Source: Paradesertivirga mongoliensis | GTDB lineage: Bacteria > Bacteroidota > Bacteroidia > Sphingobacteriales > Sphingobacteriaceae | Assembly: GCF_024436395.1 (NCBI RefSeq) | Contig: NZ_JAFMZO010000001.1 | Coordinates: forward strand, 938,181 to 1,002,180 | Length of the DNA: 64,000 bases | Direction of reading: 5' to 3' | In this document: one piece after another, positions 586 to 1,382 of the stretch | How the letters are laid out: each line of letters begins with the position of its first letter | How positions within the stretch are numbered: the stretch's first letter is position 1 | Translations under genes and position numbers: made by a program | The notes under the pieces: generated by a model | What the model was told of the DNA's origin: nothing | Seen by the model: the letters and a program-made list of their open reading frames with translations, nothing else | Database searches by the model: none

Positions 586-1062
586 TTACGACTCCAGGCT
601 TATTTGCCGTTTAATGCTTTCCTCCAGAGAAATAAATGTTTCGGTTCTCTGTATCCCTTCAACCGCCTGAATACTGTCGTTCAGTACTTCACGTAAATGG
701 TTGGTATCTCTGCAAATTATCTTGGCAAACATACTGTAAGCTCCTGTACAATAATGAAGCTCGACAATTTCTTTTACTTTTTTAAGCTTCTCTACAGCAT
801 CTTTATATATAGAGCCCTTCTCCAGAAAAATCCCCAGGAAGGCACAAACATCATAACCTATTTTTTGTGCATCAATTAACAGGTTTGAACCTTTTATGAT
901 ACCGAGGTCCTGCATTTTCTTCATCCTGACGTGTATGGTACCGCCGGATACTATTAAACGCTTGGCAATCTCTGTATAAGGAATGGTCGCATCTTCCATT
1001 AACAGAGCAAGAATCTGCATGTCCAGATTATCAATTTCTAAATTTGGGCTTCTTTTTTCCAT
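586..1062 (-). CDS. Lrp/AsnC family transcriptional regulator
   Basis: A 158-residue protein of normal family length. Residues ~10-60 form the winged HTH of Lrp/AsnC regulators (LDMQILALLMEDATIPYTEIAKRL, then the recognition helix region GGTIHVRMKKMQDLGIIKG). Residues ~70-150 fit the RAM ligand-binding domain, with the usual YCTGAYSMFAKIICRD strand. Family members form dimers and higher oligomers that sense amino acids and control amino-acid metabolism genes; the ligand cannot be told from sequence. It is transcribed away from the tRNA-like gene and ends at a bidirectional terminator. The ATG at 1062 gives a natural N-terminus just before the HTH. Confidence 0.9.
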   Translation of the reverse strand: MEKRSPNLEIDNLDMQILALLMEDATIPYTEIAKRLIVSGGTIHVRMKKMQDLGIIKGSNLLIDAQKIGYDVCAFLGIFLEKGSIYKDAVEKLKKVKEIVELHYCTGAYSMFAKIICRDTNHLREVLNDSIQAVEGIQRTETFISLEESIKRQISLES

Positions 1063-1138: not shown

Positions 1139-1171
1139 TTTGCAACAAAGATGCATTTTATTTTAAATTTG
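1139..1171 (+). promoter_or_regulatory. Bacteroidetes-type promoter for the tRNA-like gene
   Basis: A TTTG at 1139-1142 and a perfect TAnnTTTG match (TAAATTTG, 1164-1171) are separated by 21 bases, near the usual 19. Predicted transcription start is about 1177, some 27 bases before the mature tRNA-like 5' end at 1204. Confidence 0.55.
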
Positions 1172-1203: not shown

Positions 1204-1312
1204 TGTAGGGTGGTGAAACAGGCAGACACACCTCCTTGTCTCGGTGGCGGAGATTCTGGGAACGCCTTAACGGTTCAACCACTCCTTGAAGGTTCGATTC
1301 CTTCCCCTACAG
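1204..1312 (+). tRNA. Unusual tRNA-like gene: class II body, very long variable arm, GTC anticodon by geometry
   Basis: A full cloverleaf can be drawn. The acceptor stem is 1204-1210 with 1305-1311 (7 bp, T1-A72), and the discriminator is G1312. The D stem GTG/CAC has A14, A15, G18 and G19 in place. The T stem GAAGG/CCTTC carries the canonical TTCGATT loop, and T8 and T48 can make the usual tertiary pairs. By position the anticodon loop is 1236-1242, reading TTGTCTC, so the anticodon would be GTC (Asp codons) with an odd T at position 37. The anticodon stem 1231-1235/1243-1247 has a central T-T mismatch. The variable region is ~40 nt and folds as GGAG/CTCC, TGG/CCA and GAAC/GTTC, far longer than normal class II arms. 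The D arm is leucine-type. No CCA is encoded. A functional tRNA-Asp is doubtful; it may be a specialised or recoding tRNA, or a divergent tRNA-Leu relic. Confidence 0.6.
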
Positions 1313-1352: not shown

Positions 1353-1382
1353 AAGCTCCTGCACACCAGGGGCTTTGTTTTT
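1353..1382 (+). terminator. Terminator after the tRNA-like gene
   Basis: A 9-bp stem (1353-1361 with 1367-1375, one G-T pair) and a CACAC loop are followed by a T-rich run to 1382. It closes a discrete transcription unit around the tRNA-like gene. Confidence 0.65.

Follow-up and report, generated by a model that had tools for sequence, protein, structure and literature searches.

The window, a stretch of 64,000 nucleotides from Paradesertivirga mongoliensis, contains a gene for a tRNA-like RNA that lies divergent from a gene encoding an AsnC-like regulator, with promoter-like elements between the two and a terminator behind the RNA (Table 1). Further along on the plus strand (2101-2373) a small helix-turn-helix protein of the XRE/HipB type is encoded. 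The RNA is a complete class II tRNA-like molecule, TGTAGGG TG GTG..CAC A CCTCC TTGTCTC GGTGG ... GAAGG TTCGATT CCTTC CCCTACA G. Position 37 is a T, T29 and T41 are mismatched (T29.T41) in the centre of the anticodon stem, the acceptor pairs include T1-A72 and G2-C71, and C38 and G73 are present. All of these, like the length of 109 nt and the GTC anticodon, agree with what an earlier sequence-only reading had claimed.

Table 1. Features of the locus, in coordinates of the window
Feature	Position	Strand	Remarks
AsnC-like transcriptional regulator	586..1062	-	divergent from the RNA; assigned by profile scores
Palindrome TTGTTGGAATATTTGCAA	1128..1145		proposed AsnC operator; contains a TTTG -33 element
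TAAATTTG	1164..1171	+	matches TAnnTTTG, which we take to be the Bacteroidota -7 promoter consensus
tRNA-like RNA gene	1204..1312	+	109 nt; acceptor stem 1204-1210/1305-1311; G73 at 1312
tRNA-Asp-like anticodon arm CCTCC TTGTCTC GGTGG	1231..1247	+	anticodon GTC at 1238-1240; central U.U mismatch
Giant variable arm	1249..1285	+	helices GGAG/CTCC and TGG/CCA, variable distal hairpin; compensatory changes
T arm GAAGG TTCGATT CCTTC	1288..1304	+	sequence reading and alignments
Intrinsic terminator	1353..1382	+

The general tRNA model of Rfam (RF00005) recognises the gene as a cloverleaf complete with its T, D and anticodon arms, at 34.4 bits against a gathering cut-off of 29, in scans of either a short stretch or the whole genome; the match is not returned in a 5-kb scan, and ARAGORN calls no tRNA at this position. 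Shuffled sequences fold about as stably (z = -0.16). Since minimum-energy folding is thus uninformative, the case for the RNA rests on conservation and covariation.

When the DNA of 201 genomes from the same bacterial family was searched, 128 yielded homologues, often several per genome (two in P. mongoliensis itself) and sometimes in tandem. A covariance model was built from 44 copies and run over 295 genomes of the class. Its matches fell into two groups: ordinary tRNA-Leu of 76-86 nt, scoring below about 60 bits, and a distinct set of RNAs, 105-171 nt long and scoring 60-135 bits, that is present in many families of the class. A DNA pattern matched at least 120 stretches in genome contigs; among the matches listed, all those named to a lower taxon belong to the Bacteroidota, apart from one metagenome-assembled genome labelled Ignavibacteriales. 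The same pattern matched 88 stretches in viral contigs, and the family occurs on about 80 such contigs. The covariance model confirmed nearly all pattern-found loci on which it was run. Annotated phage and plasmid records gave no match. The family is not listed separately by Rfam, and no mention of it was found in the openly accessible literature.

In the class-wide alignments 97.8-98.8% of the paired cells can pair, versus 89% in shuffles and 50-62% with slid partners, and 16-17 of the 27 pairs are compensated on both sides. The latter include GGAG/CTCC and TGG/CCA of the variable arm, so that the alignments support the helices, the variable arm included, and the covarying relatives that the sequence-only reading had asked for are at hand. 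The third pairing it had proposed for that arm, GAAC/GTTC, stands in this copy but not in the family, as most relatives from the same bacterial family carry a short hairpin with a GNRA loop at the distal end. Likewise, the G10 that it had listed as an Asp identity feature is found here but is not general, position 10 being G, A or T among relatives. The suggestion that the gene is a decaying tRNA-Leu was rejected: the family is widespread, strongly conserved and multi-copy, with compensatory changes. The RNA does share its class II body, its D arm and an A15-U48-type core with the tRNA-Leu of Bacteroidota, but it differs from these in its U1-A72 pair, the tRNA-Asp-like anticodon arm, a variable arm of about 40-90 nt and the presence of G73, where LeuRS needs A73.

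Several further forms were observed in the genomes. Three to five copies stand in tandem, 150 bp to about 700 bp apart, at L032:4005-4720, L034:3484-5101 and L033:3799-5327. A second form of 136-145 nt, with the acceptor stem TGTTGGG/CCCAACA, is located a short way downstream of the first RNA (L016:1637-1778, L011:1683-1826, L019:1696-1840, L028:1296-1439 and L030:1323-1458); it has no operator-like site of its own and is therefore probably part of one transcript with the first RNA. In genome G012 the copy adjacent to the AsnC-like gene (L350:290-398) is a perfect match to the family for the first 60 nt from the 5' end but diverges beyond that point; it is a broken or rearranged copy.

The pattern of conservation within the RNA separates two sets of positions. 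G73 is found in all 179 cellular copies and U1-A72 in 178 of them. Over cellular and viral copies together G34U35C36 is invariant (240/240) and C38 nearly so (239/240), a constancy that the search pattern itself partly imposes in A3 and A4; it holds also in A1 and A2, found without the pattern. The pairs C27-G43, C28-G42, C31-G39 and G2-C71 are kept as well. The AspRS identity set (G34, U35, C36, C38, G73 and G2-C71) is thus present. The suggestion of the sequence-only reading that this may be a functional non-canonical tRNA, with Asp identity features and a Gln-like first pair, was right and gave the key to the RNA; that reading had not noticed the variation of the decoding features, the role of T1-A72 as the pair recognised by GatCAB, the AsnC-like neighbour or the link between the presence of the RNA and GatCAB. 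Position 33, on the other hand, is T, G, C or A in 203, 21, 12 and 4 copies, respectively, and hence other than U in 37 of 240, and position 37 (T/C/G/A = 212/17/10/1) is a purine in only 11. The combination of U33 and a purine at 37 that marks a decoding elongator tRNA is not found in the window's copy, where position 37 is T.

The first pair sets the RNA apart from tRNA-Asp. The normal tRNA-Asp of P. mongoliensis has G1-C72 and the anticodon arm CCTGC CTGTCAC GCAGG, whereas its tRNA-Asn and tRNA-Gln both have U1-A72, in line with the earlier description of this pair as Gln-like. G1-C72 helps the charging of E. coli tRNA-Asp, and its absence from the RNA counts against the reading that we prefer below. 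U1-A72 is the pair that is recognised by bacterial GatCAB (PMC4206432), while G1-C72, strictly conserved in bacterial tRNA-Asp, and U20a of the same tRNA block amidation (PMC9976931). A reading of the D loop indicates that U20a, too, is absent from the RNA. The molecule therefore joins the anticodon arm of a tRNA-Asp to the first pair of the amidated tRNAs.

Next to cellular copies, no protein family other than the AsnC-like one turns up widely; of 106 cellular loci, 66 have its gene in divergent orientation to the RNA. The protein of the window scores 178.5 bits with the AsnC model versus 54 with Lrp, which is below the AsnC equivalog cut-off of 227. All 39 RNA-positive genomes encode the regulator (one copy being frameshifted), as do 8 of 41 RNA-negative ones, with scores in a comparable range. 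The divergent arrangement is that of asnC and asnA in E. coli. An asnA gene beside AsnC was not found in the RNA-negative genomes; asnA is located elsewhere in G016 and G037. Sequences resembling the palindrome TTGTTAAAATATTTGCAA, allowing up to four mismatches, are present in 30 of 37 AsnC-adjacent and 23 of 29 non-adjacent copies from the same bacterial family, versus 3% in shuffles, and mostly lie 72-101 nt upstream of the RNA. We propose that the palindrome is the AsnC operator, although part of its signal may be that of a promoter, because it overlaps the likely -33 element.

The presence of GatCAB, scored by the N-terminal domain of GatB alone, follows that of the RNA. In 80 genomes GatB was found in 39/39 RNA-positive and 26/41 RNA-negative ones, where RNA-negative status depends on the sensitivity of the model, and 19 of the 20 further RNA-positive genomes among 40 added from the same bacterial family have it too; the exception, G027, is a draft assembly in which no GatB was seen. 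GatB is needed to make Gln-tRNA where GlnRS is missing. When only genomes with GlnRS are counted, GatB is present in 38 of 39 RNA-positive genomes (including G012, with its broken AsnC-adjacent copy) versus 1 of 27 RNA-negative ones (Fisher 4e-16, uncorrected for kinship; the genomes are related and the counts therefore not independent). RNA-negative genomes with GatB thus otherwise lack GlnRS, whereas RNA-positive ones retain GatB even with GlnRS. A prediction in this sense was borne out by all six GatB-bearing RNA-negative genomes among the 40 added, which lack GlnRS, three assemblies being incomplete (76-85%). Within genus g21, G021 has neither the RNA nor GatB, while G041, G055 and G066 have both. 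The sole RNA-negative exception, G211, has GlnRS, a second AspRS and, directly after gatA, a GatB-AspRS fusion of 1106 aa (L352:1304-4624). Its AspRS half carries a His at the position of His31 of the P. aeruginosa AspRS, the site that we take to mark a non-discriminating enzyme; the AspRS of P. mongoliensis has a Leu there.

AsnRS is present in 79 of the 80 genomes and AsnA in only six, and most RNA-positive genomes encode an AsnB-like protein; five of the 39 (G011, G201, G356, G435 and G481) lack both AsnA and any AsnB-like match over the cut-off. The single AsnB-like protein of P. mongoliensis exceeds the general TIGR01536 cut-off but stays well under the AsnB equivalog cut-off. TIGR01536 matches in 74 of 80 genomes and was dropped as a discriminator for being too broad. 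As AsnB-like genes are common, the RNA is not obviously essential for asparagine supply, nor would it be the only possible source, and the need for it will vary.

Taking structure, conservation, identity elements, synteny, operator-like sites and co-occurrence together, we consider it reasonably probable, though well short of certain, that the RNA serves tRNA-dependent asparagine synthesis as a dedicated tRNA that does not decode, under AsnC-type control. We infer charging, amidation, release and regulation as follows. A discriminating AspRS would charge the RNA with Asp, because G34-U35-C36, C38, G2-C71 and G73 are present, and GatCAB would convert the bound Asp to Asn, because the molecule, in contrast to tRNA-Asp, carries U1-A72 and has no U20a. 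The Asn would then be released to AsnRS and metabolism, and an asparagine-type AsnC regulator would control the RNA; we know of no specific Asn-releasing enzyme. Since the AspRS of P. mongoliensis has the Leu of discriminating enzymes, it should not charge tRNA-Asn, and an RNA with a GUC anticodon would serve as the adaptor. A decoding version would put Asn at Asp codons, which would explain why decoding features decay while charging features stay; the loss of U33 and of a purine at 37, the giant variable arm and, in the copy of the window, the mismatched anticodon stem would prevent such insertion. The wider claim, of a widespread RNA cofactor on which Asp is esterified and amidated and from which it is released as Asn outside translation, AsnC-controlled and carried by phages too, we regard as evenly balanced between true and false.

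In the indirect pathway known from Bdellovibrio, Deinococcus, Thermus and Staphylococcus, Asn is made on tRNA-Asn by a non-discriminating AspRS and GatCAB (PMC4206432). The proposed route resembles it in offering Asp on a U1-A72 RNA to GatCAB, which is kept despite GlnRS and AsnRS, and differs in using a separate GUC RNA in place of a decoding tRNA-Asn, so that a discriminating AspRS would suffice. The known synthesis relies on a tRNA borrowed from decoding; with an RNA reserved for the purpose, a cell whose AspRS is of the ordinary, discriminating kind could use the pathway and yet avoid miscoding. Bifunctional AspRS/GatC proteins (NCBIfam NF009460) couple AspRS physically to the amidotransferase, as the fusion of G211 does; in P. 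mongoliensis the enzymes are separate, and the fusion-bearing G211 lacks the RNA. The non-decoding tRNA-Gly isoacceptors of staphylococcal cell-wall synthesis likewise come from tRNA genes that have been diverted from translation and have lost decoding features, but the RNA has (as proposed) another amino acid, a class II body, a giant variable arm and a link to AsnC and GatCAB. The gap between the divergent genes is 151 bp in E. coli asnC-asnA and 141 bp here, with the RNA gene in the position of the enzyme gene. If the reading is correct, an RNA would occupy the place of asnA, as a part dedicated to amino-acid making, and the retention of GatCAB in many Bacteroidota with both GlnRS and AsnRS would be explained.

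Other functions can be weighed against asparagine synthesis. Retained charging and lost decoding features would also be expected of an RNA that, charged with Asp (or with Asn via GatCAB), acts as donor in a tRNA-dependent transfer to a lipid, a peptide, the cell wall or a protein end, much as the staphylococcal tRNA-Gly isoacceptors do, and copies are numerous and in arrays; yet no transferase recurs beside the RNA, the sole widely shared cellular neighbour being AsnC-like, and AsnC and GatCAB point toward asparagine metabolism, which makes a donor role unlikely. We hold it to be improbable, too, that amino acid carriage is not the main job and that the RNA is a regulator or decoy binding AspRS or GatCAB, or a reporter of the asparagine state. 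The adjoining AsnC-like regulator, the shared operator-like site and the presence on viral contigs would suit such a role, but the acceptor stem, G73 and U1-A72 are conserved like the anticodon, which binding alone need not demand.

It is very improbable that the RNA works in translation as an Asp tRNA of unusual build, in spite of the GUC anticodon and of U33 in 85% of the copies: the genome has a normal tRNA-Asp, position 33 is variable, position 37 is seldom a purine, and once amidated the RNA would misread Asp codons as Asn. Hardly any credence is due to an anti-Shine-Dalgarno sponge acting through CACCTCCTT in the D/anticodon arm, seen here as CACCTCCTTGTC at 1229-1240, because other families show CCCTC, CCCAC, CCATC etc. 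at this place, with compensating partners. The motif is thus a lineage feature, not kept outside the bacterial family of P. mongoliensis, and as a general function the sponge was refuted.

Finally, the viral copies are located on contigs with phage packaging genes and as a rule lack an AsnC neighbour. In about 28 viral contigs (among loci L201-L280) the RNA lies upstream of the genes for the large terminase subunit and the portal protein, a fixed place in one phage group. Viral contigs also carry a second class of tRNA-like elements, several per contig, with near-constant ends AGTCAGGTGGCGGAATTGGTAGACGC ... ACAGGTTCGAATCCTGTCCTGACTA that enclose 50-80 nt of unrelated, non-cloverleaf sequence (L211:5130-9836, L216, L218, L219, L269 and L270).
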